This document shows positions 14,472-44,713 of a stretch of DNA of 64,000 nucleotides, one piece after another. This DNA is from Dysgonomonas hofstadii (GTDB lineage: Bacteria > Bacteroidota > Bacteroidia > Bacteroidales > Dysgonomonadaceae): contig NZ_JACIEP010000015.1 in NCBI RefSeq assembly GCF_014196915.1, forward strand, positions 1 to 64,000, given 5' to 3'. Below the pieces are notes generated by a model. That model did not search any database. It was not told the DNA's origin and saw only the letters and a program-made list of their open reading frames with translations. Position 1 is the first letter of the stretch. Every line of letters starts with the position of its first letter. The position numbers were made by a program, and so were the translations under genes.

Positions 14472-14966
14472 ATGGTTAATTATCTTGGAACTAAGATAGG
14501 AGCATGTTTTACAGCAGGCTCTTTGTTGCTCACTCTTACCCTTGTGGTTCCTGTTTTTTCCATACTTCCGGGAAGCTTGTTGGAAGCCGTTGCACAAGGG
14601 CTCGTTAATAACGATCCATATAGTAATGTAGGAAAATTAACCATATTATTCCTGATAATAATGTTTGCAACTACTCTCATAATTGTATTGGTGAGAGTGA
14701 GGAAAACGGGCATCAGGATAGGCCGGGTGTGGGGGAAAAAGATAATTTACATGTCTAAAATAAAAATTGTTCTGATAATGCTATTGTTTTATTTTATTGT
14801 TCATCCTTTAGTGTTTTATCTGTATTGGGGTATTCAACTCGACTTCAGGTCCGACGGGCAATTGATAATGGAAGCAATAAGAACATTTCCGATAAGCAGT
14901 TTATCATTTATTTTTATCGGAATAATGATAGATATAGTGAAAAATCGGGGTATTGAAAACGGATGA
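14472..14966 (+). CDS. Predicted membrane protein with four helices
   Basis: A 164-residue protein starting at ATG 14472; an upstream TTG in frame is less likely. Four hydrophobic stretches are visible: about 10-35, 53-75, 95-115 and 140-160. The loop between the first two includes GLVNNDPYSNVGK. I recognise no family. It ends before the miaA promoter region and is probably a single-gene unit. Function unknown; no catalytic motif seen. Confidence 0.6.
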   Translation: MVNYLGTKIGACFTAGSLLLTLTLVVPVFSILPGSLLEAVAQGLVNNDPYSNVGKLTILFLIIMFATTLIIVLVRVRKTGIRIGRVWGKKIIYMSKIKIVLIMLLFYFIVHPLVFYLYWGIQLDFRSDGQLIMEAIRTFPISSLSFIFIGIMIDIVKNRGIENG

Positions 14967-15004
14967 AATAAAATCCAGATCAATAATTATTGATTATAAC
15001 TTCC

Positions 15005-15012
15005 TACTTTTG
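15005..15012 (+). promoter_or_regulatory. -7 element for miaA
   Basis: TACTTTTG lies only five bases before the miaA ATG (15018). Since start sites in this phylum fall a few bases after the -7 box, the miaA message may be leaderless or nearly so. A TTG-containing -33 candidate is too close (12 bases) to be convincing. Confidence 0.5.
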
Positions 15013-15017
15013 TATTT

Positions 15018-15935: not shown

Positions 15936-16079
15936 GTATAGACTACTTGCCTCTATTCTCGGGTAATGGGGATATCGGACAGCAGGAAAAACATTTTCAC
16001 ATAGTAGTGTAACAAATTCTTACCGTTGCACGTCTTTATTTTGAATATGCCCTTTAAACATTAATAAACAATTTATATT

Positions 16080-16745
16080 ATGAAAAAAATATCATTGGTA
16101 GTGTTGCTGTTGACCATTTCTATGATTAACGTTTTCTCGCAGAGTGTTGAAGATGTGATTGCTTCTTTTTCCAATCGTGAATATTCTAAAGTAGAAGCTC
16201 TGAATGAAAATGAGTGGAAATATGCGAAATTTGTTTTTTCGAAAATCGCCCCTTCCTTTTATGAAGCAAAAGCGGAAATGCAATTGAAAGATACTCTTAA
16301 TAGCTTCTGGTTCGATAAAGTTTTTACACGCAAAGCGAATAATAACAACAGCTACAGCGTGGATTTTGATAAAGTGAAAACCGAAGCGGCCAAAGTTACC
16401 CTTTCTGATATTCCCGAAGTGAATGAGTTTGTTTTTATCGGGATGAAAATGCCTATCCTCGAAAAAGCAAAATCCATAACCCACTTAGAGTTAAACAATT
16501 ATAACGAGAACGCAAAAAGCGAATTCTGGAACGAAATAGATAAAATGAAGTCTTCCTATGAAGTGCTTATATCAACAAATGAAGATAGCGAAAGGTCGAT
16601 GATAATGAAGAATAAGGGAGAAGAGTCTTTCTCCGAGATCATTATGATAGACGAAACTGACGAATCGACAATCGACCTGGTGTGGATGAAAGGTTCATTC
16701 GATGGTTCAGTTCTGGCCCCTCCTAAAGATTGTAATGAAAAATAG
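16080..16745 (+). CDS. Exported protein of unknown function
   Basis: A 221-residue protein with a clear signal peptide (MKKISLVVLLLTISMINVFS then QS). The mature part is acidic and helical at first, then has beta-type segments such as NEFVFIGMKMPI and IVYVKG-like stretches (SYEVLIS, MIMKNKG, EIIMIDE). Its tail pattern (membrane-independent, about 200 residues, DETDESTIDLVWMKG) resembles small Bacteroidota periplasmic families with a DUF4252-like look, but I cannot name it with confidence. It is followed by a terminator and has no operon partner. Confidence 0.6.
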   Translation: MKKISLVVLLLTISMINVFSQSVEDVIASFSNREYSKVEALNENEWKYAKFVFSKIAPSFYEAKAEMQLKDTLNSFWFDKVFTRKANNNNSYSVDFDKVKTEAAKVTLSDIPEVNEFVFIGMKMPILEKAKSITHLELNNYNENAKSEFWNEIDKMKSSYEVLISTNEDSERSMIMKNKGEESFSEIIMIDETDESTIDLVWMKGSFDGSVLAPPKDCNEK

Positions 16746-28852: not shown

Positions 28853-31648
28853 ATGAAACTATTTCTTCTTGACGCTTATGCGCTGATATACCGCTCTTAT
28901 TATGCTTTTATTAAGAGCCCGAGGGTAAACTCGAAAGGGCTGAATACATCGGCTGTTTTTGGTTTTGTAAATACATTGGAAGAACTTCTCCGGAAGGAAA
29001 ACCCTACACATATCGCCGTGGCTTTCGATCCTCCGGGCGGCACTTTCCGGCACGAAGCATACGAACACTATAAAGCCCAGCGGCAGGAGACTCCCGAAGA
29101 TATTAAGATAGCAGTACCTATTATCAAACAGGTGATAGACGCATATAACATCAAGGAGTTGGAAGTACTCGGTTACGAAGCCGATGATGTGATAGGAACC
29201 ATCGCCAAAAAGGCAGAAAGAGAAGGTTTCGATGTGTATATGATGACACCCGACAAAGATTACGGGCAATTGACCAGCGACCATATCTTTATGTACAAAC
29301 CTAAATTCGCAGGAAACGGGTTCGACACTCTGGATGCCAAAGCCATAATGGAGAAATACGAACTGAAAGAACCATGTCAGATGATTGACCTGCTCGGATT
29401 GATGGGAGACTCGTCGGACAATATACCCGGATGTCCGGGTGTAGGACCCAAGACAGCACAAAAACTACTGGCCGATTATGGTACGATTGAAAACCTGCTT
29501 GAAAACACAAAAGACATTAAAGGCACATTGAAACTCCGTCTCGAAGAGAATAAAGAGCAGATCATTTTCTCTAAATTCCTTGCCACAATCAAGATTGATG
29601 TGCCTATCGAGTTTCAGAAAGAAGAATATAAAAGACGGGAAATAAACGCAGAAAAACTATCGGCATTATTCGAAGAACTGGAATTCCGCACGCTCATTAA
29701 CCGGGTACTCAAAAAGGATGGTACACCTGCCAATCCGGTAAGGATAACCACGACACACGAAGCGATCCAGGGCGATCTTTTTGCTGAATTACTACCTGCT
29801 CAGAATCAATCGGCAGATATCTTCGACTACTCCGGTTTACAGGAATTAAAAGATATTCCACATACCTACCATCTGGTAGATAAAGCCGAAGAAATAGCTG
29901 CTCTTGCCATAAAACTAATGGACGAAAAGTCCTGCTGCTTCGATACCGAAACCACAGGACTAGACCCGATAATCAGCGAACTGGTAGGTATGTCCTTCTC
30001 TTTCAAAGAGGGAGAAGCCTATTATGTGCCTGTTCCTGCCGATTTTGAAAAGGCGAAAGAAATAACAGAACAGTTCCGCCCGTTCTTCGAAAATGAAAAA
30101 ATTGAAAAAACAGGACAAAATCTGAAATACGACATCATTGTCCTGAAAAAATATGGCATCCATGTGAAAGGGAAGCTGTTTGATACCATGATAGCCCATT
30201 ACCTGCTCAACCCTGAGTTGCGCCACAATATGGACTATATGGCTGAGACTTATCTTAAATACCGCACTATCCATATCGATGAACTGATAGGAGCCCGAGG
30301 TAAGAACCAGTTGAATATGCGCAGCCTGCGCCCCGATCAGATCAAAGATTATGCCTGTGAAGATGCAGACGTTACCCTAAAACTGAAAGCAATTCTTGAA
30401 AAAGCTATTGAGAAACAAGGTCTTGAAAAACTTCTTTACGAAATAGAGTTGCCTTTGGTATATGTACTTGCCGATATGGAATATACCGGAGTACGCCTCG
30501 ATACCAACGCATTAGCGGAATATTCCAAGAAACTGACCGTACAATTGCAGAATATAGAGGCCGACATACATCAGGAAGCCGGAACCGAACTCAATATAAA
30601 TTCGGCCAAACAGGTAGGTGAAGTTCTTTTCGATAAACTGAAAATAGTGGATAAACCGAAGAAAACAAAAACCGGCCAATACGTAACCAGTGAAGAAACA
30701 CTGGAAGCGCTCAGGGAAGCACATCCGATAGTCGGAAAAATACTGGAATACCGCGGGCTGAAAAAACTTTTGAGTACTTATGTGGATGCACTTCCATTAC
30801 TGGTAAGTCCTAAAGATGAGAAAGTACATACATCATACAACCAGACAGTAACAGCCACAGGACGGTTAAGCTCGAGCAACCCCAATTTGCAGAATATCCC
30901 GATCCGTGAAGATCAGGGCAGGGAGATACGCAAGGCGTTTATTGCCGATGAAAACTGCACATTCTTCTCTGCCGACTATTCACAGATCGAACTTCGCATT
31001 ATGGCGCACCTCAGTCAGGATCCGAATATGGTAGACGCATTCAATAGCGGAGAGGATATCCATGCCGCCACTGCCGCAAAAATATACAAATTACCTATCA
31101 GCGAAGTTACTCCCGAAATGCGCCGTAAAGCCAAAACGGCTAACTTCGGTATTATCTACGGCATCTCGGTATTCGGGTTGGCCGAACGTCTGGCGATTCC
31201 ACGGGGAGAAGCAAAAGAATTGATAGACGGGTACTTCGAAACTTATCCTAAGGTGAAAGAATATATGGATAAGAGCATTTCCGTAGCCCGTGAAAAAAAC
31301 TATGTGGAAACTGTATTCGGACGCAAACGCTATCTGCCGGACATCAATTCACGAAATGCCACCGTTCGTGGTTACGCCGAACGCAATGCCATCAACGCGC
31401 CGATACAGGGAAGCGCCGCCGATATTATCAAAGTGGCGATGAACCGTATATTCGAGCGTTTCGACCGGGAGAATATCCAATCGAAAATGATCCTTCAGGT
31501 ACATGACGAATTAAACTTTAATGTGATAGGAAATGAACTTGAAAGAGTGCAACAAATAGTGATTCAGGAAATGGAAAATGCTTATAAGCTGGCCGTTCCC
31601 CTTAAAGCCGATTGCGGAAAAGGGAAGAACTGGCTGGAGGCGCATTAG
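28853..31648 (+). CDS. polA: DNA polymerase I
   Basis: A 931-residue three-domain repair and Okazaki-fragment enzyme. The 5'-3' exonuclease (about 1-300) starts LFLLDAYALIYRSYYAF and has LGYEADDVIG and GDSSDNIPG. The 3'-5' proofreading domain (about 340-530) keeps its acidic residues (CFDTETTGLDP, YACEDADVT), so proofreading is likely active. The polymerase domain has motif A FFSADYSQIELR, motif B KTANFGIIYG, and motif C LQVHDEL. It is a single gene and overlaps no neighbour. Confidence 0.97.
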   Translation: MKLFLLDAYALIYRSYYAFIKSPRVNSKGLNTSAVFGFVNTLEELLRKENPTHIAVAFDPPGGTFRHEAYEHYKAQRQETPEDIKIAVPIIKQVIDAYNIKELEVLGYEADDVIGTIAKKAEREGFDVYMMTPDKDYGQLTSDHIFMYKPKFAGNGFDTLDAKAIMEKYELKEPCQMIDLLGLMGDSSDNIPGCPGVGPKTAQKLLADYGTIENLLENTKDIKGTLKLRLEENKEQIIFSKFLATIKIDVPIEFQKEEYKRREINAEKLSALFEELEFRTLINRVLKKDGTPANPVRITTTHEAIQGDLFAELLPAQNQSADIFDYSGLQELKDIPHTYHLVDKAEEIAALAIKLMDEKSCCFDTETTGLDPIISELVGMSFSFKEGEAYYVPVPADFEKAKEITEQFRPFFENEKIEKTGQNLKYDIIVLKKYGIHVKGKLFDTMIAHYLLNPELRHNMDYMAETYLKYRTIHIDELIGARGKNQLNMRSLRPDQIKDYACEDADVTLKLKAILEKAIEKQGLEKLLYEIELPLVYVLADMEYTGVRLDTNALAEYSKKLTVQLQNIEADIHQEAGTELNINSAKQVGEVLFDKLKIVDKPKKTKTGQYVTSEETLEALREAHPIVGKILEYRGLKKLLSTYVDALPLLVSPKDEKVHTSYNQTVTATGRLSSSNPNLQNIPIREDQGREIRKAFIADENCTFFSADYSQIELRIMAHLSQDPNMVDAFNSGEDIHAATAAKIYKLPISEVTPEMRRKAKTANFGIIYGISVFGLAERLAIPRGEAKELIDGYFETYPKVKEYMDKSISVAREKNYVETVFGRKRYLPDINSRNATVRGYAERNAINAPIQGSAADIIKVAMNRIFERFDRENIQSKMILQVHDELNFNVIGNELERVQQIVIQEMENAYKLAVPLKADCGKGKNWLEAH

Positions 31649-31667
31649 CTTCACAGAAAATCAAGAT

Positions 31668-32180
31668 ATGATGAAAACGATTGTCGGATTATTTATTTCT
31701 TTAATAATTACATGCTCGTTTATTTTACCGGACAATGACTTGCAAAAACCGGCATGCTACAAGATACGCAGCATAGAAGTTTATAAAGACTTAGAGCCTA
31801 ACGGAAAACATACTGACTCTATAACATTTGAATCAGGGGAGAGAGTAATGTATACTTTATCGCATACCGATATAGTTGGTTATGGTTATAAAATAGAAGC
31901 AGAATTGGAAGGTTCATACGATATCTTTTTTATTTTTTCTTATAGTAAACAGAATCATGTGGAATCTGATTCTCCGGATAAAATAAAAGTAGGTGAAAAA
32001 TATTTGTTGTCTTTATATCCGGCGATGGTAGATAATGATGAAAGAAGAGGAATACAAAGATTTAGTTATTGTGGGAATATCTTTCCTTTCGGGAAAAAAT
32101 CCGGAGATTCAAAAATCAATATTTGTCATGCGAAAAATCTCGTTGGTTTGCACCTAATGGGGCATAATAATAAAAACTGA
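31668..32180 (+). CDS. Exported protein of unknown function
   Basis: A 170-residue protein that starts at ATG 31668, 19 bases after polA. A signal peptide (about 1-21, TIVGLFISLIITCSFIL) precedes a beta-rich region with YKIRSIEVYKD, YGYKIEAEL and YDIFFIFSY. The cysteines at about 30 and 137 could form a disulfide. I recognise no family. It may be read through from polA; the next operon has its own -7 element, so it is not part of the membrane-protein array. Confidence 0.55.
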   Translation: MMKTIVGLFISLIITCSFILPDNDLQKPACYKIRSIEVYKDLEPNGKHTDSITFESGERVMYTLSHTDIVGYGYKIEAELEGSYDIFFIFSYSKQNHVESDSPDKIKVGEKYLLSLYPAMVDNDERRGIQRFSYCGNIFPFGKKSGDSKINICHAKNLVGLHLMGHNNKN

Positions 32181-32242: not shown

Positions 32243-33952
32243 ATGGGGCTACCAAACATCATTCAATCTAAAGACAAAACCCAATACTGGATATTTCTTT
32301 CCACATTGGTTTTACTCACACTGTTTATGATGTTATGTAATGGTTCCTCGTCATCATATTCCGGATTTGATTTCATGTTTCATTATCGTCGGTTCGATGT
32401 CTTGATCGACGCTTTACGGCATGGCTCCTACCCTGTCTATATCGATTACAGCACTGCCGAAGGATACGGTTATTTCACCAAAGGATTCTATCCTGATCTC
32501 ACATTGGTGCCTTTTGCTCTTATTGGAGTATTCACAACCACTTACTTTGCGTACGACTTTATGGTGTTTGTTATGACCATTCTTTGCGGAGTGTTCATGT
32601 ATCATACGGTCAGGGTAATTTATAAAGACGGTTATGCTGCGGCCATCAGTGCCCTTTTGTATACATTCGCCCTATACCGGCTTCTGGATTTTTACCAACG
32701 GGGAGCAACTGCCGAGGCACTTTCATTTACGTTCCTGCCCATTGTCTTTCTGGGACTTTATTATGTAGTGAAAGGCGATTATAAAAAATGGTATGTGTTG
32801 ACCATCGGTTACAGTCTGCTGATCTATACCCATGTAATAGCTTCGGTGCTGATGTTTGTCACCCTGCTGATAATACTTGCCGTTAATTACAAATCGTTGA
32901 TAAAAGAGCCAAAACGAATCGGTTACCTCTTCCTGGCGGGACTGACGACGCTTGTTATTGTTTCTTACTATGTCTTTCCCGTAATAGAGCAGTTAAACTC
33001 CAATTCCTTTTACCTCAATATACGTACACCAGGAGGTGGTGCGGGATACAATAAGAGTAGTTTCGCACTTATCCTGCAAGGATTTATAAGTGGCATCCAT
33101 TATCCCGAAGGCAAATTATGGGCAGGTCCCGGTATTCTTCTTACAGCACTGCTTTTCCTTCGCTTTTTTATTAAAAAAGAAGATAAAAGTGATTTATTGA
33201 AAAGTACCGATATCGGCGTAATCACCGGTTTTTGTTTCATTATAGCCATCTCCAGTATATTTCCGTGGGGACGATTTCCTTTCAACCTGCTTTCGGCCAT
33301 ACAATATCCCTGGCGATTATTTGAATTTGTGGTTTATTTCTTCGCGGTAGGCGGAGGGTATTATATTTCCATACTGGTGAAAAAGGACAAGCGAAGGCTC
33401 TTTGCTTTTAGTGGAATTGTTCTGGCAACATTCGCCTTAATTTATATACATAGCGTTAATTTTAAGCATCATTATCCCGCAAAAGAGGACAGGTTATGGT
33501 TTTTTACGAGCGAAGAGCCTGTATATTTTAACCGCTACCACACTATTGGCGGCGAATATTTCCCGTATAAATTACCCAACATAGAATATATTCACGAAAG
33601 AGGACTGGTTGCGGAAACGGAAAATGAAGACACCCGGATCTCAAATCTGAGAAGGGATTATAATACGACGTTACTCAATGTAAATATTGTCCGTCCCGAT
33701 ACAGTAATCCTACCACTGGTCTATTATCTGGGTTATACTGTAACGTTGAATGGAGAAAAGCTACCTTACATAGAAAGCGATAAGGGGCTTATAGCTGTCC
33801 CCATTAACCAGCCCGGAGAGTTAAAAGCCTGGTATGCCGGAACAGCAATACAAAAAATAAGTTTTTATATTACCCTTATAGCCATATTGTTACTTTCAGT
33901 TTATATATTTGTGCAAAGAAGACGCAACAGAATAAGAAATGAGCATGATTGA
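32243..33952 (+). CDS. GT-C-like membrane protein, array member 1
   Basis: A 569-residue multi-spanning protein (about 11 hydrophobic segments) of a family resembling PTPS-related membrane proteins (PF10131), thought to share the GT-C fold of polyprenyl-phosphate-sugar transferases. The first periplasmic loop holds FDFMFHYRRF (Asp43, His47, Arg50), then a second motif, VYIDYSTAEGYGYF plus FYPD (Asp85). Later motifs are LYRLLDFYQRGATAEA, GYSLLIYTHV and FPWGRFPF. The C-terminal 100 residues form a non-membrane beta-type domain (LPLVYYLGYTVTLNG), with a final membrane helix. It overlaps member 2 by 14 bases. Confidence 0.65.
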   Translation: MGLPNIIQSKDKTQYWIFLSTLVLLTLFMMLCNGSSSSYSGFDFMFHYRRFDVLIDALRHGSYPVYIDYSTAEGYGYFTKGFYPDLTLVPFALIGVFTTTYFAYDFMVFVMTILCGVFMYHTVRVIYKDGYAAAISALLYTFALYRLLDFYQRGATAEALSFTFLPIVFLGLYYVVKGDYKKWYVLTIGYSLLIYTHVIASVLMFVTLLIILAVNYKSLIKEPKRIGYLFLAGLTTLVIVSYYVFPVIEQLNSNSFYLNIRTPGGGAGYNKSSFALILQGFISGIHYPEGKLWAGPGILLTALLFLRFFIKKEDKSDLLKSTDIGVITGFCFIIAISSIFPWGRFPFNLLSAIQYPWRLFEFVVYFFAVGGGYYISILVKKDKRRLFAFSGIVLATFALIYIHSVNFKHHYPAKEDRLWFFTSEEPVYFNRYHTIGGEYFPYKLPNIEYIHERGLVAETENEDTRISNLRRDYNTTLLNVNIVRPDTVILPLVYYLGYTVTLNGEKLPYIESDKGLIAVPINQPGELKAWYAGTAIQKISFYITLIAILLLSVYIFVQRRRNRIRNEHD

Positions 33953-35642
33953 CAACATAATAAACAGGATAGCCGGGAATAAGAAAACCCACTTTTGGCT
34001 GTTTTTCGCAATACTGGTCTTTCTCACTGTGGCTATGATGTTCTGTTATCAGCCACTTTGTCCCGGGCAGGATTTCTTTTTCCACTTCCGTCGTTTCCAG
34101 GCACTGATGGATGGGCTGAAAGAGAGCCCTTTCCTTATCTATCTTGACTACACAGCCATAGACGGGTATGGATATTTTGCTAAGGCCTTTTATCCTGATG
34201 TTATCCTTATACCATTTGCCATTATAGGAAACCTCACGAATGCTGAATTCGGCTACCTGTCGATGATTTTTGTAATGACTGTCCTATGTGGTGTATTTAC
34301 ATACATAACCATTAACAAGATATTCCGCAGCCCGTTTGCTGCCGCTATGGGAGCAATCCTTTTCACGTTCTGTGTTTACAGGTTACTGGATATATATCAC
34401 CGGACTGCACTGGGTGAAGCCCTGTCATTCACGTTTATCCCGCTAGTTTTCTGGGGGCTTCACGAAATAATCAGCGGAAATTATAAGAAATGGTATATTC
34501 TGGCAATTGGCTATGCTCTGTTGATATTCACCCATGTGATATCTACCGTGCTGATGTTTTTTACCATGCTTATCCTGCTGGTGATTTACTACAAGCCATT
34601 GATAAAAGAACCGAAGCGAATCTTATACCTCATAATAGCTGGTGTGGCGGCATTGATAATGGCTTGTTACTACCTGTTACCGATGTTTGAACAAATGGCA
34701 TCGGACACATTCTACTATAACGGGCGCAATATGATGGCGAAGGCCGGAGATATGACGCTCGATTTCCACTGGATACTGTGGGGAATGTTCACGGGCATCA
34801 TACATCCAAAACAATTATTCATTCCGGGCACAGGGCTTTTATTGACCTGCGTGATAGCACTGCGGATTTTCGTAGCAGGCAAATCGCCGCAACTAAAATA
34901 TGCCGATGTAGGTGTAGTTATCGGACTGATATTCCTGTTGATGTGTTCACCTGTCATTCCGTGGAGTGTTTTCCCTTTCACCCTACTCGACTTTATTCAG
35001 ATGCCGTGGCGCCTCTATGAATTTTCAAGCTTTTTCTTTGCAGTGGCCGGAGGGTATTATCTGTCGCTTCTTGTAAAATCAAACAAACGTGCACTGGTAT
35101 GCGGCGGCATGGTTGTAATGGCAACATTGCTGGTACTGGTTAACGATGGCAAGCTTTATAAAGATGTGCGCTGCTCCAACTCTATAGAATCGACTGATAA
35201 TAATATACCGCTTCCGCCTAACGGTTACCATATGGGCGGACTCGAATATCTTCCGGCAAGCGTGCCATCTCCCGATTTTTTTGTAGAGAGAAGCATGGTA
35301 GTTTTACACAAACATCCCAAAACAGGAATTACCTCGTTGAAAAGAGAAGGAAATGCTACAACGTTCGATCTGGATATTATAGAACCCGATATACTGGAGC
35401 TTCCTTTAGTTTATTATAAAGGCTATAAAGTTACTATCGACGGCAAGGAAGCAAGCATAAAGGAAAGCCCGAATGGCCTTATAGAAATGAAAGCCGACAG
35501 GCCGGGCAAAGTAGAAGCTTATTATTCAGGCACACCTTTGCAGGTGATCAGCTGGTTAATAAGTATAACAAGCATTCTGGCCCTTTGCATATATATTTAT
35601 ATTTCGAACAGGAAAACAAAGAACACACTGACAGAGAAATGA
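33939..35642 (+). CDS. GT-C-like membrane protein, array member 2
   Basis: A 567-residue paralogue. Loop-1 motif GQDFFFHFRRF and second motif DYTAIDGYGYF with FYPD. Membrane segments follow the pattern of member 1, including YRLLDIYHRTALGEALSF and IFTHVISTVLMFF. The C-terminal domain has LPLVYYKGYKVTIDGKEA and ends in a helix with a basic tail. Its N-terminus (NKKTHFWLFF) is most like members 6 and 7. Its last four bases (ATGA) contain the start of member 3, so the genes are translationally coupled. Confidence 0.65.
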   Translation: MSMIDNIINRIAGNKKTHFWLFFAILVFLTVAMMFCYQPLCPGQDFFFHFRRFQALMDGLKESPFLIYLDYTAIDGYGYFAKAFYPDVILIPFAIIGNLTNAEFGYLSMIFVMTVLCGVFTYITINKIFRSPFAAAMGAILFTFCVYRLLDIYHRTALGEALSFTFIPLVFWGLHEIISGNYKKWYILAIGYALLIFTHVISTVLMFFTMLILLVIYYKPLIKEPKRILYLIIAGVAALIMACYYLLPMFEQMASDTFYYNGRNMMAKAGDMTLDFHWILWGMFTGIIHPKQLFIPGTGLLLTCVIALRIFVAGKSPQLKYADVGVVIGLIFLLMCSPVIPWSVFPFTLLDFIQMPWRLYEFSSFFFAVAGGYYLSLLVKSNKRALVCGGMVVMATLLVLVNDGKLYKDVRCSNSIESTDNNIPLPPNGYHMGGLEYLPASVPSPDFFVERSMVVLHKHPKTGITSLKREGNATTFDLDIIEPDILELPLVYYKGYKVTIDGKEASIKESPNGLIEMKADRPGKVEAYYSGTPLQVISWLISITSILALCIYIYISNRKTKNTLTEK

Positions 35643-37299
35643 TGTCTCACTCTCCGATAACAACCAATGCGAAGAAATACGATAAGCTCTTATTTCTTTT
35701 CGTTCTGGCAGCACTATCGCTATTTATGGTATGCTGGTATGCACCCGTGTCGGAGTATGGAGGACATGATTATTTCTTCAATTTGCAGCGGTTCCGTACA
35801 CTAATGGGAGCACTGCAATCGGGCAATTACCCTATATACCTCGATTATCAGGTGATGGAAGGATACGGTTACTTTACTAAAGCTTTCTATCCCGATCTTA
35901 TGCTGCTGCCTTTCGCTGCGCTGGCCATTCTTACCAGCATTCCGTTTGCCTACGATGTAATGATCTTTACATATACATTCCTTTGCGGACTGTTCATGTA
36001 TCAGGCTGAAATAAAAAGATGGCATATCTGAGTGCCGTATTATATACTTTTTCGGCCTATCATCTGTTCGACTGGTACAACCGGGGAGCTTTGGGCGAAG
36101 CCATTTCGTTCACTTTCCTGCCTGTTGTTTTTCTGGGTTTTTACGAGATTGCTAAAGGGAATTATCGCAGATGGTACTTGTTGACAATAGGTTACAGTCT
36201 GCTGATATACACACATCTGCTATCATCTTTTCTCACTTTCATCACGCTGATTATCGTTTCACTCTTCTATCTTAAACCACTGGTAAAAGAGCGGAAAAGG
36301 ATATTGTATTTGTTACTGGCCGCAGTGGTTACAATCCCGATAGTGGCTGGTTATCTATTCCCGATGCTGGAGCAAATGGCATCGAACACGTTCAATTATA
36401 GCAATGCTGTCAACATTACAGGGCAAACCAAGCTAAGCCTGCAACAGATAGGACTGGGAATGCTTAGCGGACTGTTTTATCCCGAAGGTGAGAATATTGC
36501 AGGCATGGGAATCTTATTGATCACGTTAATAGTCCTGCGCCTGTTTATAAAAGAAAAAACACCACTATTAAAAATCGCTGATTGCTGCGCTTTGATCGGA
36601 GTTATTTACACTATTACCATGTCCTTTATCTTCCCATGGGGACGTTTACCTTTAGGTTTTATCCAGTTTCCATGGCGGCTTTATGAATTTGTAGTTTTCT
36701 TTTTCGCCATCGCCGGAACATATTATCTGATTAACATTATCAAGACAAGAAAACAATATATAGTTGTGAGTGCGGGCATAGTGATACTGACATTAACCAC
36801 CATCGTCATAAGCAATAATAATTATGTCCGCTGGCAAACAAAGGCATTGCGAGATATTCCCGAATTATTCACAGGCATTCCATCTGTAGACAACGAATAT
36901 TATCTGGGTGGCCGAGAATATATGCCTGCCAAAGTGCCTACATACCGGATGTTCAACCAACGGAAAGACAGTATTACCACTTCTTTTGTCGGAGCATATA
37001 CTTCAAATTTTCAGAAGAAAGACGGCATCACCAGTTTCGATGTGATCACAAGCGAACCCGTGACACTCGAACTTCCTCTCATTTATTACAAAGGATATAA
37101 AGCATTCATCGATGGAAACGAAGTTCCGTTAGAGGAAAGCACAAGGGGGCTTGCCCAGATTTCAACGGATAAACCGGGAAAAGCAAAAATATTTTACCAG
37201 GAAACTATTATACAAAAAGCGAGTTGGTATGTTTCACTCATAAGCACAATACTCCTTTGTTTATTTATACTTAAATACAGGGAAAGAAAGCAACAGTAA
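35639..37299 (+). pseudogene. GT-C-like membrane protein, array member 3, frameshifted
   Basis: A broken paralogue. Bases 35639-36031 encode the N-terminus, with loop-1 motif HDYFFNLQRF, where the usual His is Asn. The frame then runs into a stop after MYQAEIKRWHI. A second open frame from 36019 to 37299 (426 codons) resumes the family sequence at AYLSAVLYTFSAYHLFDW. Comparison with members 4 and 5 shows that 16 bases are missing between MYQ and NKKM; restoring them gives 559 codons, the normal size. The downstream frame could still be translated from ATG 36019. The fragments look otherwise intact and recently broken, unless this is an assembly error. Confidence 0.8.
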
Positions 37300-37301
37300 A
37301 T

Positions 37302-38987
37302 ATGACAGAAACCTCATTGCACAACAAGACAAATAAAAAAACTTACAGGATATTCCTTATCGTCCTGTTCCTGTTGTCGCTGTTTATGGTTTGGTGGACA
37401 GGTCCTGTATCCGATTATGGCGGACACGATTATTTTTTCCATCTCAGACGCTTCAATGTATTGGTGGATGCGCTCAGAGATGGAGAATATCCCATATATC
37501 TGGATTATGAAAACATCGGTGGATACGGCTATTTTACCAAAATTTTCTACCCCGATCTTATTCTACTGCCTTTTGCGCTGTTATCTCTTCTTACAGGTGT
37601 AGGGGCCGCCTACAATGTTATGCTTTTCATCATGACATTCCTGTGTGGTATTTTTACTTACAAGTTGATATCTACCATTTTTTCTAATTCCCCGGCGGCA
37701 TTTTCCGGCGCGTTACTCTATACATTTTCGGCCTACCGCCTTTTCGATCTGTACCAGAGAGGAGCATTGGGCGAAGCGCTTTCATTTACTTTTCTGCCTC
37801 TGGTGCTGCTGGGATTATTCTATATAATTTCGGGTGATTATCGCAAATGGTACGTACTGGCGGCCGGATATAGCCTTGTTATCTATACACATGTCTTGTC
37901 GTCATTCATGGTATTTGTCTTGCTCTTTATTCTCTGCGCAATTTCATACAAGTCTTTCCGGAAAGAGCCTGTAAGACTGGGATATCTTTTGCTGGCAGCC
38001 ATAGTAACAGTAGGATTCACTGCATCTTACATATTCCCGATGCTGGAACAAATGGCCTCCAATACATTTTACTATGAAAACCAGCCGAATATTACGGGAC
38101 AGAATAAACTGGGAGCTCACAGGATATTATGGGGCTTTGTCAGCGGATTCTTATATCCTCAGAATTCTCCTTCTTGTGGAGTAGGTCTATTACTCACTAT
38201 TTCGGCCTGCCTGCGCATTTTTATAAAAGAAAAAAGCAACTATCTGAAGATCGCTGATGGTTGCCTGATTATCGGGGTAACATTCCTGATCATTATGTCA
38301 TCTGTTTTTCCATGGGGACGGCTTCCTCTCGGATTTATACAGTTTCCATCGCGGTTTTACCTGTTGGTGAGTATGATGTTTGCCATTGCCGGAAGTTATT
38401 ATCTATCGGCGCTCTTAAAATCGAAGTCGCGACAGGCAGCAGGCAGTGTAATACTTGTAATCTTTACCATTGCAGTTATTATATTAAGCAATAAATATTA
38501 TACTGAAGGACAGATAAAAGCCCGGGCTTCCAATTCGAACGAGACTACCGATAAACCGATAATCGGCAACTGGTACAATCTGGGATGGTTGGAATATCTG
38601 CCTGAAAAAGTACCATCGATTTACTATTTGACAGACCGTGGCGACAGCATCACAGCCCTGAACGAAAGCACAAGTATATCCGATTTTCAAAGAAAAGGCC
38701 GCACACTCAAATTCAGCGTAACATCTTCTGCCGACACGTTGGAACTGCCCCTTACATATTACAAAGGATATAAAGCCTTTAAAGACAGACAGCCACTGGT
38801 TCTGCAGGAAAGCCAGAACGGACTGGTAGAAATCGCGATCCGGGGTAATGGCAGGGTGAATGTATTTTATGAATGGACATTCGTTCAGGAAATCAGTTTG
38901 TATATCTCCCTTATCTGTATCTTTGTGCTTATTACATATATTTTTGTTTGGAAGAGGAAAGCAAAAAAACAAATCCCAAAAGAATGA
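37302..38987 (+). CDS. GT-C-like membrane protein, array member 4
   Basis: A 561-residue paralogue, closest to member 3. Loop 1 has GHDYFFHLRRF (Asp43, His47) and DYENIGGYGYF with FYPD. The helices follow as in member 1 (YRLFDLYQRGALGEALSF, VIYTHVLSSFMVF), then FPWGRLPLGFIQFPSRF. The C-terminal domain has LPLTYYKGYKAF and QNGLVEI. It starts two bases after the member 3 stop codon. The last residues are basic (KRKAKKQIPKE), in the cytoplasm if the final helix returns. Confidence 0.65.
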   Translation: MTETSLHNKTNKKTYRIFLIVLFLLSLFMVWWTGPVSDYGGHDYFFHLRRFNVLVDALRDGEYPIYLDYENIGGYGYFTKIFYPDLILLPFALLSLLTGVGAAYNVMLFIMTFLCGIFTYKLISTIFSNSPAAFSGALLYTFSAYRLFDLYQRGALGEALSFTFLPLVLLGLFYIISGDYRKWYVLAAGYSLVIYTHVLSSFMVFVLLFILCAISYKSFRKEPVRLGYLLLAAIVTVGFTASYIFPMLEQMASNTFYYENQPNITGQNKLGAHRILWGFVSGFLYPQNSPSCGVGLLLTISACLRIFIKEKSNYLKIADGCLIIGVTFLIIMSSVFPWGRLPLGFIQFPSRFYLLVSMMFAIAGSYYLSALLKSKSRQAAGSVILVIFTIAVIILSNKYYTEGQIKARASNSNETTDKPIIGNWYNLGWLEYLPEKVPSIYYLTDRGDSITALNESTSISDFQRKGRTLKFSVTSSADTLELPLTYYKGYKAFKDRQPLVLQESQNGLVEIAIRGNGRVNVFYEWTFVQEISLYISLICIFVLITYIFVWKRKAKKQIPKE

Positions 38988-38993
38988 AAAACA

Positions 38994-40655
38994 ATGATAC
39001 ATCCCGATAATAATAAAATGATATTCCGCATATTTCTGGCAACACTGCTGATTCTGGCCGTGTTCTCAGTTTTTATATACGGCGCGTCATATAATCATCC
39101 GGGATACGATTATTATTTTCACCTCAAACGCTTCGAAGCTCTTATCTCCGCACTACAGGACGGGCGGTTCCCTATTTATGCCGATTATACCGCTTCTTTG
39201 GGATATGGCTATATACACCGTTTCTTCTATTCCGATATTATCCTTATTCCGTTCGGACTCATTGGCATCTTCATCGGAGCGCAACCGGCATACGAAGTTA
39301 TGCTATTTGTGATGACAATCCTTTGCGGACTATTTATGTACAAAGCCGTGAATATTATTTACAGGAATTCTTATACGGCATTCATCGCCTCCATCCTTTA
39401 TACATTCTCGGTGTACCGCCTCATCGATATTTATCCGCGCGGAGCATTGGGTGAAGTATTTGCCTTCACATTCCTGCCAATCGTCTTTTGGGGACTGTAC
39501 CATATTATAAAAGGCAATTACCATAAATGGTATGTTATTGCCATCGGATTTAGTCTGCTTATCTTTTCACATATCATATCCACGGTTCTCGCATTTATCA
39601 CAGTGGTAATCGTGCTAATTATCTACTATAAACCGTTGATAAAAGAGCCGAAACGCATTTTGTATCTTATGCTGGCGGGAGTAACGGCTGTTGCCATTAC
39701 ATCCTCTTATATCTTTCCATTGTTCGAACAGTTATCCTCCAATACATTCCTTTACGAAAATAATGACTGGAGCCTGCCTTCACGCACTAAGCTCCCGTTA
39801 TTACACTTACTATGGGCGCTCTTTTGCGGATTTGTTTTCCCAAAAGATATAATGGTGACGGGAATAGGCATTTTACTTACCCTGTCAATTTTTATCCGCT
39901 TCTTTATAAAAGGTAAGCCTGAAGGCATAAAAAGTGTAGATATAGGCGTATTCATCGGGCTATTTTATATACTTGCTTCTTCGAGCCTGTTCCCGTGGGG
40001 ACGGTTTCCATTCTCTTTGCTCTCATTCATTCAGTATCCCACCCGGTTTTATCTGTTTGTCACCTGTTTCTTCGCTGTGGCGGCGGCATTCTACCTGTCA
40101 GCCGTTTTTGTAAAAAGCCGTCAGAGACAAGTCATTGCCTTAGTCATCGTTGTGTGTACCATATTTACCATGTATATGCATAGCGAAAACTATAAATATA
40201 TGCACCGTACATATATCAACCAGACAAACGAAAAACCTGTGCCGGGCAATTTTTTCTATCTCAATGGCGGCGAATATGTTCCTGCCCGTGTCAGATCAGC
40301 CAATTATGTGCAGGCAAGGGGCGATAGCGTGATCAGTAAGTTTGGGAATTTATCGATCGATAAATTTGAGAGAGAGAAAGGGATTATAAACCTATCGATA
40401 ATCACGCAGACTGCCGATTCGCTTGAACTGCCATTGTTTTACTATAAAGGTTATACGGCCGAACTGAATGGAGAAAAACAACCAGTAAGTCAAAGCACCC
40501 ACGGACTGGTACAAATACCTGCCGACGGGTCGGGAAATATGAAGGTATATTATGCCGGGACACCCGTTCAACGAATTTCGTGGTACGTAAGCATAATAAG
40601 TATATTGGTAATATGTATTTATATTTTTAAGCGCAAAAGGAAAAATCATATATAG
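38994..40655 (+). CDS. GT-C-like membrane protein, array member 5
   Basis: A 553-residue paralogue, the shortest intact member. Loop-1 motif GYDYYFHLKRF, second motif DYTASLGYGYI with FYSD. The usual FTK after YGY is IHR here, so the second motif is partly changed. Later motifs are YRLIDIYPRGALGEVFAF, IFSHIISTVLAF and FPWGRFPFSLLSFIQYPTRF. The C-terminal domain has LPLFYYKGYTAELNGEKQ. Six bases separate it from member 4 and one from member 6. Confidence 0.65.
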   Translation: MIHPDNNKMIFRIFLATLLILAVFSVFIYGASYNHPGYDYYFHLKRFEALISALQDGRFPIYADYTASLGYGYIHRFFYSDIILIPFGLIGIFIGAQPAYEVMLFVMTILCGLFMYKAVNIIYRNSYTAFIASILYTFSVYRLIDIYPRGALGEVFAFTFLPIVFWGLYHIIKGNYHKWYVIAIGFSLLIFSHIISTVLAFITVVIVLIIYYKPLIKEPKRILYLMLAGVTAVAITSSYIFPLFEQLSSNTFLYENNDWSLPSRTKLPLLHLLWALFCGFVFPKDIMVTGIGILLTLSIFIRFFIKGKPEGIKSVDIGVFIGLFYILASSSLFPWGRFPFSLLSFIQYPTRFYLFVTCFFAVAAAFYLSAVFVKSRQRQVIALVIVVCTIFTMYMHSENYKYMHRTYINQTNEKPVPGNFFYLNGGEYVPARVRSANYVQARGDSVISKFGNLSIDKFEREKGIINLSIITQTADSLELPLFYYKGYTAELNGEKQPVSQSTHGLVQIPADGSGNMKVYYAGTPVQRISWYVSIISILVICIYIFKRKRKNHI

Positions 40656-40656
40656 C

Positions 40657-42417
40657 ATGAAATTCAACAGTTTAATTAATAAAATCGCCGTAAACAAAAA
40701 ACTCCAGTTCTGGTTATTTTTTATAATACTGGTACTTCTTACTTTGTATATGGTAAGTCAGTACCCGCTTCTGGGCAAAGCCAACGGCCACGATTATTCT
40801 TTTCATTTAGCACGCTTCGAAGCGCTTATCGAGGCTTTAAAAACAGGAAAATATCCCATATATATAAATTACACTATTTTAGATGGATATGGATATATGG
40901 AGAAATGCTTTTATTCCGATTTTATACTCGTGCCTTTTGCCATAATTGCCATTTTCTCCGATACAACAACAGCTTTTCAGATACTTATCATCACAATGAC
41001 GATACTCTGCGGTATTTTTACATATATGACAGTAAATAAAATCAGTGGGAGTGCCTTCACTGCGACTATCAGCGCTATCCTGTATACATTCTGTTTGTAC
41101 AGGCTGCTAGATGTATATCATCGTTTTGCATTCGGAGAAGCTATCTCTTTTACTTTCATTCCTATAGTCTTTTGGGGATTATATCATATTGTAAAAGGAG
41201 ATTACAAGAAGTGGTATATTATTTCTATCGGATTCAGTTTATTGGTCTTTACACATGTACTTTCCACTTTTCTTACATTTGCAACTATATTGCTGATCCT
41301 CATAATAAATTATAAATCGCTCAGGAAAGAACCTAAACGATTAATGTATCTGATACTGGCTGGTTGCACAACTGTTCTGGTGACATCTTATTATCTTTTC
41401 CCAATGTTTGAGCAAATGCTCTCTAATACATTTTACTATAAGACAAATGAAACTATTTTTCCACGTTATTTCAGGCTTGATAATTTTCAAGTAATAGACG
41501 CGTTATTTGGCGGGTTCACCTATCCGAAATTTGACTTTGCCCCACGAATCGGGGCTATACTTGGCTTTGGGATATTGATCCGCCTGTTTGTGTGGAAAAA
41601 ATCAGCTGAAATAAAGATTGCCGACATGGGAGTTCTCATTGGTGTGTTCTATTTGTTTGTTTCATCATCTTATTTTCCCTGGGAGAAGTTTCCTTTTTAT
41701 GAATTTTCTTTCATCCAGTTCCCCTGGAGATTGTTTGTATTCGTCTCTTTCTTTTTTGCAATAGGCATCGGTGTTTATCTTGCTGCCATTATTAAATCCC
41801 CGTCACGTTCTCTTGCTGCTGTATTTATTACAGTAATAATCACCACGGCATTGATGTACACCGACGGGAAATTATACCGGCAGGAGGTACTTCGGAATAA
41901 TTTTGAGCGTATCCAAAAACCTATACCAAAAGTTGCTCAGGCCAAGCGCGAAAAAAAACCATGGGATATATATACTTATTTCCGCATGGGAAATCTTGAA
42001 TATGTCCCTTCAAAGGTCCCTTCTCCAGACTATATTAAACAAAGAAAAGACAGTGTTATTCCGCTGCATGAGCCAACAACAATCGATAATTTTGAGCGGA
42101 ACAAAGGAGTTACTTCAGTGAATGTAAAAATAGATGAACCCGACACACTAGAACTCCCCCTACTGTATTATAAAGGATACACAGCCGCTCTCAACGAAAA
42201 AAATATCTCCATAAGCGAAAGCGATAACGGACTTGTAGAAATACCTGTTAACGAATCGGGGAATATAAAAGTGTATTACGCCGGAACAACTGTACAAAGA
42301 GTATCATGGTATATTTCTCTAATATCCATATTAATATTTGTATCCTATATATTGTATTCAAGAAAAAGAAAGAATGAGATTCATCAAAAAGACACTGCGC
42401 CATCTGGAAGAAAATAA
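40657..42417 (+). CDS. GT-C-like membrane protein, array member 6
   Basis: A 586-residue paralogue with a longer C-terminal tail. Loop-1 motif GHDYSFHLARF, second motif NYTILDGYGYM with FYSD, where Asn replaces the usual Asp. Later come YRLLDVYHRFAFGEAISF, VFTHVLSTFLTF and FPWEKFPFYEFSFIQFPWRL, and the C-terminal LPLLYYKGYTAALNEKN. The extra C-terminal residues (EIHQKDTAPSGRK) overlap the start of member 7 by 44 bases, an unusually long overlap for this operon. Confidence 0.65.
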   Translation: MKFNSLINKIAVNKKLQFWLFFIILVLLTLYMVSQYPLLGKANGHDYSFHLARFEALIEALKTGKYPIYINYTILDGYGYMEKCFYSDFILVPFAIIAIFSDTTTAFQILIITMTILCGIFTYMTVNKISGSAFTATISAILYTFCLYRLLDVYHRFAFGEAISFTFIPIVFWGLYHIVKGDYKKWYIISIGFSLLVFTHVLSTFLTFATILLILIINYKSLRKEPKRLMYLILAGCTTVLVTSYYLFPMFEQMLSNTFYYKTNETIFPRYFRLDNFQVIDALFGGFTYPKFDFAPRIGAILGFGILIRLFVWKKSAEIKIADMGVLIGVFYLFVSSSYFPWEKFPFYEFSFIQFPWRLFVFVSFFFAIGIGVYLAAIIKSPSRSLAAVFITVIITTALMYTDGKLYRQEVLRNNFERIQKPIPKVAQAKREKKPWDIYTYFRMGNLEYVPSKVPSPDYIKQRKDSVIPLHEPTTIDNFERNKGVTSVNVKIDEPDTLELPLLYYKGYTAALNEKNISISESDNGLVEIPVNESGNIKVYYAGTTVQRVSWYISLISILIFVSYILYSRKRKNEIHQKDTAPSGRK

Positions 42418-44062
42418 AAGACTTCAGTACTTTATTTTTGCTGCCATTGTCATTCTTCTGACTATGCTGATGATGAACGGGTATAATCTTTCCTGCCTGG
42501 CACAGGCTCACGATTACCAGTTCCATTATCAACGCTTTGTTGCCCTAATGAATGCACTGAAAGAAGGTGCCTTCCCTTATTATACAGATTATGCTGCCGT
42601 TGATAATTATGGGTATCTTACAAAGGTCTTCTATTGCGACCTTATCCTGATTTCTTTCGCTGCCATAGGGTTATTATTTAGCGCAGAGACTGGATTTTAC
42701 AGCCTGATAATAACAATGACACTTCTATGTGCCTCATTCACCTATATAACGGTATATAAGATCTTCAAAAGCAGATTTGCCGCCTTTACCGCTTCTTTGC
42801 TGTATACTTTCTGCCTTTACAGGCTGATCGATTTTTTCTACCGTTTTGCATTAGGAGAGGCCATCTCTTTCACGTTTATCCCTATTGTCTTTCTGGGGTT
42901 ATATTATATCATATATGGCGACTACCGTAAATGGTATATAATAACAATTGGTTACAGCCTGCTTATATTTACCCATGTCCTGTCGTCCTTTCTCATGTTC
43001 GTAACCATGCTTTTATTGCTTCTTGTGGGGGCAAGAAGGCTGATAAAAGAACCCAAGCGAATTTTGTCGTTGATAATCGCCGGCCTGGCGACAATCGTGA
43101 TAACATCATACTATTTGTTCCCCATGCTGGAACAGATATGGAATAGTTCGTTCTATTTCAGCACATCAGAAGAAATAGTAGCTCATTGGAACAGGCTGAG
43201 ACCCGACCAGATGATTATTGCCCTGCTGGGAGGATTTTTACAGAAGACAAATGGGTTTATCCCGGCAATAGGAGCAATACTAACTATCGGAATTTTTTTG
43301 AGGATTTTTGTAAAGGAAAAAGCTGATACACTCCGGAAAGCCGATATAGGCGTAATCATCGGAATCTTTTACATATGGGGCGCATCATGGCTTTTCCCAT
43401 GGGGTACACAGCCGTTTCATTCATTCTCATTCATCCAGTTTCCCTGGCGGCTCTTTGAGTTCACCTCTTACTTTTTCGCCGTTGGAATCGGGGTTTACCT
43501 GTCCTTCCTTATCAAGTCGAAAGGACATAGGCTGATCGCATTTTCCACAATTACAGGGTTAATCGTGCTGATGATGTTTTTCGACGGCAAATTATACGAC
43601 TATATTATTTGTAATAATAATAGCTATACATTCGAGATCGTCTCGGATGGCTATGGAATGGGTTCTTTGGAGTATATTCCTTCGAGAGTACCCGACAGAG
43701 GCTATATGAAAGAACGGGGCGACAGCATAGGAAAGAAAAATGATGACACCCGGATCGAAAACTTTGTAAGGAATAAAAGCATCACCAGCCTAAAAGTAGA
43801 GGTGCAGCAACCCGATTCTATCGAGCTTCCTTTATTTTATTACAAAGGGTATACAGCAGAACTAAACGGACAACAAATCCCTGTCACTCACAGTCTTTTA
43901 GGACTTGTACAAATCCCTGCAGAAAAACCGGGCGATATAAAAGTGTATTATACAGGGACTACTGTTCAAAAAATTTCGTGGTACACAACTATTATGAGTA
44001 TCTTTTCGTTATGTATTTATATCTTTGCAAATAGAAGAAAACGTTTATCTAAAGAAAAGTAA
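42374..44062 (+). CDS. GT-C-like membrane protein, array member 7
   Basis: A 562-residue paralogue that starts at ATG 42374, inside member 6. Loop-1 motif AHDYQFHYQRF, second motif DYAAVDNYGYL with FYCD; it is the only member with NYGY and a Cys in that loop. Later come YRLIDFFYRFALGEAISF, IFTHVLSSFLMF and FPWGTQPFHSFSFIQFPWRL, and the C-terminal LPLFYYKGYTAELNGQQ. An upstream TTG (42338) is a less likely start. It is followed after two bases by the small membrane protein gene. Confidence 0.65.
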   Translation: MRFIKKTLRHLEENKRLQYFIFAAIVILLTMLMMNGYNLSCLAQAHDYQFHYQRFVALMNALKEGAFPYYTDYAAVDNYGYLTKVFYCDLILISFAAIGLLFSAETGFYSLIITMTLLCASFTYITVYKIFKSRFAAFTASLLYTFCLYRLIDFFYRFALGEAISFTFIPIVFLGLYYIIYGDYRKWYIITIGYSLLIFTHVLSSFLMFVTMLLLLLVGARRLIKEPKRILSLIIAGLATIVITSYYLFPMLEQIWNSSFYFSTSEEIVAHWNRLRPDQMIIALLGGFLQKTNGFIPAIGAILTIGIFLRIFVKEKADTLRKADIGVIIGIFYIWGASWLFPWGTQPFHSFSFIQFPWRLFEFTSYFFAVGIGVYLSFLIKSKGHRLIAFSTITGLIVLMMFFDGKLYDYIICNNNSYTFEIVSDGYGMGSLEYIPSRVPDRGYMKERGDSIGKKNDDTRIENFVRNKSITSLKVEVQQPDSIELPLFYYKGYTAELNGQQIPVTHSLLGLVQIPAEKPGDIKVYYTGTTVQKISWYTTIMSIFSLCIYIFANRRKRLSKEK

Positions 44063-44064
44063 CA

Positions 44065-44277
44065 ATGAATCAAATCTCAAACATCGATTACATATATCCT
44101 GTCTTCATGCTTTTGTTCGGGCTGTTTATGATCTTCAGTCCGGGAACATTCATCCGCAAGGTAGGGTATAACGAAGAACGTACCAAAGCCGAGAAATGGC
44201 TTAAATGGACAGGAATAGGACTTTGCGTATTCGCACCGTTGCTTGCCGGATTCTTTTATTACAAGATGAATGCTTGA
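44065..44277 (+). CDS. Small two-helix membrane protein
   Basis: A 70-residue protein with two hydrophobic helices (about 9-26 and 47-66) around a polar loop (RKVGYNEERTKAEKWLK). It lies two bases after array member 7 and overlaps the YqaA-type gene by eight bases, so it is probably made with both. No known family. It could be an accessory subunit of the YqaA-type protein, which is an inference from position. Confidence 0.6.
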   Translation: MNQISNIDYIYPVFMLLFGLFMIFSPGTFIRKVGYNEERTKAEKWLKWTGIGLCVFAPLLAGFFYYKMNA

Positions 44278-44713
44278 CGGATTTGTAGAATACGGGTATA
44301 TCGGCCTATTTCTGGCTTCTTTTCTTGCGGCTACTATCCTTCCGTTTGGCTCCGAATTCGTCTTTGCCGGATTGCTGGCAATGGGTATGAATGCCTGGGG
44401 CTGTGTCATAGTTGCTTCGGTAGGTAACTGGCTGGGCGGAATGACAAACTACTATCTCGGGCGTCTGGGTAAAATAGAATGGATAGAAAAATACCTGAAA
44501 GTCGATAAAGCCAAAATAGATAAAATGCAACACTGGCTGGAAGGAAAAGGAGCTATTATGGCCTTTTTCAGCTTTATGCCGGTTGTAGGCGATATCATTG
44601 CACTGGCATTAGGCTATATGCGGTCAAACGTTTATATAGTGAACGTCGCCATGTTTCTGGGAAAATTCGCCCGCTATGTTCTCATTATGTACGGGGTCAA
44701 CTGGATTATTTAG
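44270..44713 (+). CDS. YqaA/DedA-type membrane protein
   Basis: A 147-residue protein of the YqaA/VTT (SNARE-associated) type. The N-terminus has GLFLASFLAATILPFGSEFVFAG, and a later GNWLGGMTNYYLGR and MPVVGDIIALALGYMR are characteristic. DedA relatives include flippases that return undecaprenyl phosphate across the membrane, but YqaA proteins themselves are uncharacterised. Because it follows seven GT-C-like genes that would use polyprenyl-phosphate sugars, a lipid-carrier role is an attractive inference. The start overlaps the previous gene. Confidence 0.8.
   Translation: MLDGFVEYGYIGLFLASFLAATILPFGSEFVFAGLLAMGMNAWGCVIVASVGNWLGGMTNYYLGRLGKIEWIEKYLKVDKAKIDKMQHWLEGKGAIMAFFSFMPVVGDIIALALGYMRSNVYIVNVAMFLGKFARYVLIMYGVNWII

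Follow-up and report, generated by a model that had tools for sequence, protein, structure and literature searches.

The DNA analyzed here, referred to as the window, is a stretch of 64,000 nucleotides from Dysgonomonas hofstadii (contig NZ_JACIEP010000015.1, positions 1 to 64,000 of the forward strand), and the element in question is a tandem array of seven paralogous genes for membrane proteins, which fill positions 32243 to 44062 on the forward strand. Their predicted fold and a conserved aspartate of the first loop support an assignment to the superfamily of glycosyltransferases of fold class C (GT-C). Six genes are intact open reading frames (ORFs) of 553–586 codons (569, 567, 561, 553, 586, and 562 in gene order, the last counted from the ATG at 42374, which is preferable to the TTG at 42338), and the remaining one, gene 3, is split. 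The copies are 40–50% identical to each other, gene 3 being represented by its 3′ piece, and with gene 2 as the query the other copies of the array match at E values of 8.7e-25 to 2.4e-166. This bears out the seven-copy array described in a first-pass annotation of the window. The same query found no copy outside the array at E ≤ 1 in the organism's own 5.04 Mb genome. The genes and the two borders of the slot that holds them are as follows.

28853–31648, forward strand: polA (DNA polymerase I; named by eye from the sequence), left border of the slot
32243–33952, forward strand: GT-C gene 1, class A, 569 amino acids (aa)
33939–35642, forward strand: GT-C gene 2, class B, 567 aa, structure modeled
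35639–37299, forward strand: GT-C gene 3, class C (N49/H148), broken, with frames to 36031 and from 36019
37302–38987, forward strand: GT-C gene 4, diverged class C, 561 aa, H49/R148 and S357/L361
38994–40655, forward strand: GT-C gene 5, class D, 553 aa, T357/L361
40657–42417, forward strand: GT-C gene 6, class E, 586 aa
42374–44062, forward strand: GT-C gene 7, class E, 562 aa from the ATG, structure modeled
44270–44713, forward strand: membrane protein with a VTT domain (Pfam PF09335, E 1.6e-9), right border of the slot

Neighboring genes overlap by as much as 44 bases or are separated by no more than 6, and gene 3 starts at 35639 in an ATGA overlap with gene 2, as read from the bases. With junctions this tight, it is likely that the array is expressed as a single transcript. 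The frameshift reported earlier for one of the copies corresponds to the split of gene 3, the cause of which is a single 16-base deletion near position 36015, as seen in a nucleotide alignment with the ortholog in the relative G012. The two frames correspond to residues 15–124 and 132–559 of gene 2, and class C orthologs in relatives do not have this kind of break.

Fold and conserved residues

The structures of the proteins of genes 2 and 7 were modeled with AlphaFold, with a mean predicted local distance difference test (pLDDT) score of 88.9 and 89.0, respectively, and a predicted TM-score (pTM) of 0.90 each. Both models show a membrane core and a first loop made of helix, and toward the C terminus a beta domain precedes the last helix. 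By our reading, the helix list of the gene 2 model gives 11–12 membrane helices, compared to about 11 in the first-pass annotation; hydropathy gave overlapping segments and did not serve for the count. In Foldseek searches against the PDB, the first 18 matches of each model are AftA, PglB, STT3 or chains of oligosaccharyltransferase (OST)/translocon complexes (which we take to be STT3), AftD, and AglB, with probabilities of 0.98–1.00, E values of 2.5e-4 to 0.065, and sequence identities of 8–15%. These proteins thus share the fold class of the array, yet at low identity, with TM-scores below 0.5 and with different donors and acceptors. Solute carriers follow at probabilities of 0.04–0.30, and short matches to glycoside hydrolases, which probably fall on the beta domain, are also found. 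The GT-C fold suggested in the first-pass annotation is supported by these two confident models and their matches.

The sequence motifs named earlier are present with variants, namely [GA]xD[YF]xF[HN]xxRF, GYGY....FYxD, Y[RH]LxDxYxR (FFYR in gene 7), [FI]PW....P...IQxPxR, and LPLxYYxGY. The histidine of the first motif was found in six of the copies, whereas gene 3 has an asparagine there. The aspartate of the first loop (D45 in gene 2 numbering) is present in 76 of the 79 rows from the taxonomic family, the other three being gaps, that is, in all rows that cover it, and in 3/3 rows from Lactobacillales. Tyr147, Glu160, Trp185, and His199 occur in 79/79 core rows, and Asp151 in 76. D45 and D151/E160 would be the counterparts of the acidic residues in the loops of known GT-C enzymes, and the first loop is expected to face the periplasm.

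The earlier suggestion of a kinship with YfhO-like proteins holds in a weak form. Three of the seven window proteins (genes 2, 4, and 5) exceed the 28.5-bit cutoff of the YfhO profile PF09586 and gene 6 reaches 24.7 bits, while genes 1 and 7 and the 3′ piece of gene 3 are not listed at E ≤ 0.1, and the profile run over the genome gave no place above the cutoff. In a wider alignment of 35 rows, 21 match PF09586 at E ≤ 1. The PTPS_related profile (PF10131), also proposed at first, matches none of the seven window entries at E ≤ 0.1, gene 2 scoring 9.8 bits against a cutoff of 26.4, yet 13 of the 35 wider rows match it at E ≤ 1, the best at 1.3e-8. A longer and more distant YfhO-like ORF with an open frame of 844 residues lies elsewhere in the genome, on contig C8 at about 14514–16598; two pieces of it score below the PF09586 cutoff, and it does not match the array profile.

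Paralog classes, genomic slot, and distribution

The copies of the array and their relatives fall into classes in a tree of 82 proteins, built with a quick method after two short fragments were dropped. Support values of the Shimodaira–Hasegawa-like approximate likelihood ratio test (SH-aLRT) are 100 for class A (14 rows), 82 for class B (22 rows), 100 for class C (13 rows), 99 for class D (12 rows), and 82 for class E (6 rows), which is weak. Genes 6 and 7 are sisters (SH-aLRT 99). Positions were counted as class-fixed when they are fixed (at least 90%) in each of the classes A–D and yet differ between them, with gene 4 excluded from class C. These positions include 49 and 148, which are His/Arg in A, B, and D and Asn/His in C, and 361, which is Glu in A, B, and C and Leu in D, where position 357 holds Thr, Ser, or Gly instead of Trp. 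The combination H/R/W/E at 49/148/357/361 is found in 14/14 rows of class A and in 21/22 of class B, and L361 together with T, S, or G at 357 in 12/12 rows of class D. In class C, N49 and H148 occur together in 8 of the 13 rows, and two more rows without the loop have H148. Gene 3 carries N49 in its 5′ piece and H148 in its 3′ piece, and gene 4 has neither, so the broken gene was the only N49/H148 copy of the window. The signature sites lie inside conserved motifs, which fits, without proving it, a change in substrate handling. For the proposal of the first-pass annotation that the copies have several specificities, these class-specific motif residues are the indirect indication at hand.

We have also considered gene 4, whose S357/L361 are D-like, as a recombinant of classes C and D. 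The mean identity in 17 sliding windows does not support this origin: class C is the sole highest in 8 windows and tied highest in 6, class A is highest in 2, class B in 1, and class D in none.

With each genome counted once, 23 loci extend from polA through the copies and further, and 21 of these have the copies enclosed by polA on one side and the VTT gene on the other. The exceptions are G028, with the order polA–VTT–GT-C, and G008, in which no VTT match occurs within 6.4 kb past the copies; six further loci end at contig edges, with one border visible. Among 15 genomes selected because they have no member of the GT-C family, polA and the VTT gene are adjacent in 13, while of the other two one gives no VTT match and one has the VTT gene on a 3.9-kb contig. 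Since the pair is adjacent without the family, the GT-C genes were probably gained inside a pre-existing polA–VTT pair. DedA-type proteins take part in the recycling of undecaprenyl phosphate (Und-P). A role of the VTT neighbor as a functional partner of the array was considered and dropped, given its adjacency to polA in those 13 of 15 family-free genomes. The distance between polA and the array differs among the relatives. In the window it holds a small, secreted-looking ORF (by eye; 31578–32180), which counted from its first ATG overlaps the end of polA by 71 bases and matches nothing in Pfam or NCBIfam at E ≤ 0.1.

The window has the largest slot found, A-B-C(broken)-C′-D-E-E, where C′ is gene 4. 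The slot reads ABCD in G003, G004, G008, G012, G016, and G021, ABBCD in G002, G010, and G019, ABCDE in G005, AB in G011, and BE in G017 and G020. In G018, A-B-unclassed and C-D are on two contigs, G014 has A-B-unclassed, G013 has B and E on two contigs, and G007, G009, G022, and G024 hold unclassed copies. The first-pass annotation called a sevenfold expansion unusual, which applies to the number seven but not to the arrangement, as sets of four or five copies in the same order are frequent in the genus. The recurrence of arrays in other genomes also argues against a recent assembly artifact.

The order A-B-C-D is kept in all 11 arrays that have the four classes on one contig (the window and ten relatives). 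For these 11 genomes, the class subtrees share 5–8 of 8 splits pairwise and 4–5 of 8 with the polA tree, where the null means are 0.2–0.4. These congruent class trees and the fixed order indicate that the four-class set is old and has been inherited as a block. The polA tree, several forks of which are weak, places lower-copy genomes both at early branches and within the genus, and both gain and loss of copies seem likely. Solo copies outside the slot are found, for example, in G005, G007, and G009 and in all five genomes of the sister genus, G030 and G031 having solo copies only. The neighbors of ten solo-copy loci are, by eye and with no family search made, of the housekeeping type and not glycan clusters. 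The sister genus has a second conserved site with a solo copy in 5/5 genomes (G028, G029, G030, G031, and G032), next to genes resembling gyrase/topoisomerase A and tRNA-guanine transglycosylase (named by eye).

The genus as used here is narrower than NCBI Dysgonomonas, and D. capnocytophagoides DSM 22835 belongs to another genus of the family. Matches at E ≤ 1e-10 occur in 23 of 25 genomes of the genus, the own genome included, the other 22 having 1–6 places each, a number that takes in fragments and solo copies. At E ≤ 1e-8, the taxonomic family has matches in 27 of 88 genomes and in 4 of 15 genera. Draws from the order and from the phylum, with at most three candidates scored per genome, gave 5/392 matching genomes, all of the same taxonomic family, and 3/392, namely the own genome and two partial matches (1.8e-18 and 1.5e-14). 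The GT-C family is rare in the sampled Bacteroidota outside its own taxonomic family, and the possibility raised earlier that most Bacteroidales carry one copy is at odds with the 387 of 392 genomes from the order that have no match.

A single scan of named genomes found 12 loci, 8 in Dysgonomonas, 2 in Prevotella, and 2 in Lactobacillales. The Prevotella sp. records Hs463_bin56 and 10(H) (L026 and L028) are probably mislabeled genomes of the Dysgonomonas lineage. The two Lactobacillales loci hold three proteins that match the seven-row profile at 8.8e-61 to 9.9e-57 (in a small ORF set), one or two good copies per genome. About 5 kb from the two Fructilactobacillus copies lies a third GT-C-like ORF of 611 aa (L036:18038-19873; motifs by eye), which does not match the array profile at E ≤ 1e-5. 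More distant relatives are encoded in 31 plasmid records, of which 22 come from Lactiplantibacillus (22–28% identity among the 15 matches listed), and in 7 phage records from Listeria and Enterococcus (23–26% identity). A transfer into the Dysgonomonas lineage is plausible. Three of the Lactiplantibacillus plasmids (L151, L152, and L153; 6.5, 8.1, and 16.1 kb) each have just one gene annotated as YfhO, and in every case the tblastn match starts 420–426 bases upstream of the annotated start.

Proposed donor supply and mechanism

The Tetragenococcus relative (L035) lies directly upstream of a GtrB-like GT2 gene, named by its sequence. A protein encoded on contig C16 of the own genome is 58% identical to this GtrB-like protein (E 6.0e-123), and weaker GtrB-like matches are found on C5, C1, and other contigs. 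Orthologs of the C16 protein at E ≤ 1e-90 are present in 28 of the 88 genomes of the taxonomic family, in 26/27 of the GT-C-positive versus 2/61 of the GT-C-negative ones (Fisher p of 7e-19 over genomes and 0.004 over genera, neither corrected for phylogeny). GtrA-type proteins (PF04138) score above the cutoff on C19 and C7. Next to the arrays and solo copies, neither GtrB nor GtrA was found except for the GtrB at the Tetragenococcus copy. G023 (L148), a 99% complete member of the genus with a 2.2 Mb genome, keeps the GtrB ortholog and has no detectable GT-C.

The multicomponent systems covered in PMC8035078 combine a glycosyltransferase of fold class A (GT-A), a flippase, and a GT-C enzyme, and the sequence similarity of the GT-C proteins between systems can be low. 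Among them, the GT-C protein YfhO modifies teichoic acid with GlcNAc together with CsbB and GtcA (PMC8035078), and a YfhO-like glycosyltransferase family related to PglB/STT3 is described in a 2023 Nature paper (PMC10584680). The array resembles YfhO in being of the GT-C type, in the three proteins above the PF09586 cutoff, and in that its genome also encodes a CsbB/GtrB-like synthase along with GtrA-like proteins. It differs in that its proteins have about 560 aa compared to the 835 positions of the profile, of which 69–395 alone are matched, and in its unlinked GT-A, tandem paralogs, and Gram-negative host. Gram-negative bacteria are not known to have teichoic acids. Most GT-C proteins tabled in PMC8035078 have their own GT-A, and the CsdAB/CD/EF pairs of Lactococcus lactis share a flippase. 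Like the array, the Csd system has several GT-C proteins in one cell, there for different polymers and with shared parts, but with one GT-A per GT-C, whereas here one unlinked GtrB ortholog tracks up to seven paralogs. A smaller precedent for one donor and several acceptors is GttA of Listeria monocytogenes 4b, tabled as the donor enzyme for both GtlB and GttB (PMC8035078). A GT-C gene next to its GT-A is common in such systems but not universal, and in the present family the two are linked in Tetragenococcus (L035) and unlinked at the array. In searches of the literature on Dysgonomonas glycosyltransferases, on Dysgonomonas lipopolysaccharide (LPS)/O-antigen, and on Bacteroidetes YfhO, no title among the papers listed concerned such an array.

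The best explanation, which we hold to be probable, is a set of GT-C enzymes with diverse acceptors that arose by tandem duplication and uses a donor made in trans. In this reading, the proteins are GT-C glycosyltransferases akin to YfhO and to the PTPS-related family. Each protein would work on the periplasmic face of the inner membrane and move a single sugar from an Und-P-sugar onto a surface glycan; the loop-1 aspartate would lie at its active site, and its C-terminal beta domain would sit close to the acceptor. The C16 GtrB-like synthase would make the donor and a GtrA-like protein would flip it, and one polyprenyl-phosphate-sugar pool most likely supplies several acceptor-specific periplasmic transferases. 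Classes A, B, C, and D would have formed in the polA–VTT slot before the species split, kept their order, and come to differ in acceptor or linkage specificity, while in the window species the set would have been extended and the N49/H148 class C gene lost. This would be the known multicomponent glycosylation scheme with the GT-C step multiplied. The array itself, the predicted fold, the residue conservation, the colinear inheritance, the class-specific residues, and the co-occurrence with GtrB are observed; the donor, the orientation, the acceptor, and the division of labor between the classes are inferred. A more specific version, which we put forward as tentative, is a module of one donor and many acceptors, in which one Und-P-sugar synthase feeds four to seven GT-C paralogs split into acceptor classes, the synthase perhaps having been acquired with the GT-C gene from a Lactobacillales-like source. 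The motif splits behind its acceptor classes are the largely coupled change from H49/R148 to N49/H148 in class C and that from WxxxE to [TSG]xxxL in class D.

A number of observations weigh against this explanation. Only 7 positions are fixed differently between classes A–D, and the change in class C is uneven, with N49 but not H148 in one row, H148 but not N49 in another, and both missing from gene 4. A single class B copy fills the slot in G001 and in G006, so not all classes are needed, and the polA–VTT pair exists without the GT-C family as well. The query-length TM-scores of the GT-C matches are only 0.31–0.48, and a 35-row profile gave no match at E ≤ 10 among the sequences of solved structures. 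On the donor side, the co-occurrence with GtrB is confounded by phylogeny (four GT-C genera); in G023 and G087, GtrB is present and no GT-C is found even at E ≤ 0.1, and the reverse holds for G014 (82% complete), where GT-C occurs without the GtrB ortholog. GtrA-like genes occur in 23/25 genomes of the genus, G023 included, and hence carry little information, and neither GtrB nor GtrA is present in the 64-kb window or the array loci examined.

The fixed A-B-C-D order and the inheritance as a block would also be expected if each class added one successive sugar of the same periplasmic chain, with the gene order reflecting the pathway. We consider such an assembly line rather unlikely, because vertical inheritance alone predicts a fixed order and because slots with B alone (G001 and G006), BE (G017 and G020), or AB (G011) would require missing steps to be tolerated. 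Moreover, one GtrB ortholog tracks the family, although two weaker paralogs in the own genome could make other donors. The copies could instead be largely interchangeable members of a repertoire under phage or host pressure, born and lost in turn, whose number and identity alter surface antigenicity. Consistent with this are the copy number of 0 to 7 over 25 genomes, the broken copy and the extra C′ and E copies particular to the window, and the distant relatives on small Lactobacillales plasmids and in Listeria and Enterococcus phage records, as would be the case for surface-modification cargo. However, classes A–D are kept as orthologs with similar trees, and the sliding-window identities of five copies, an informal test in which some windows tie between classes, reveal no clear mosaic, which makes such turnover unlikely.

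Two further alternatives concern the activity itself. Since PglB, STT3, and AglB are among the best structural matches, the proteins might act as oligosaccharyltransferases that transfer a glycan from a lipid diphosphate to protein, as PglB does, or as polymerases of a sugar from Und-P-sugar; a glucan of Lactobacillus johnsonii is described as needing a bactoprenol glycosyltransferase and a flippase, which are GtrB/GtrA-like (PMC7117936). On the other hand, YfhO, the best-matching annotated family, belongs to systems that transfer single sugars from C55-P (PMC8035078). AftA and AftD, moreover, also match the models. Both use single-sugar donors, and we regard this alternative as improbable. 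Even less probable, to the point of being very doubtful, are noncatalytic membrane scaffolds or transporters with a GT-C-like fold. No activity of the proteins is known, and they do lack sequence matches to solved proteins, but little or no variation is seen across the classes at D45 and other polar motif residues, and the solute carriers in the fold search are confined to the low probabilities given above.

Dysgonomonas is found in insect guts and human samples, and the array points to an uncharacterized glycan-decoration system in this genus. The specificity of GT-C enzymes is hard to read from sequence, and four old, colinear classes with one fold, apparently one donor synthase, and few class-fixed differences at motif positions offer a natural experiment in GT-C acceptor specificity. 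If the version with one donor and many acceptors is true, the module would amount to a toolkit, encoded on the chromosome, with which Bacteroidales could decorate their surface glycans in a combinatorial way.

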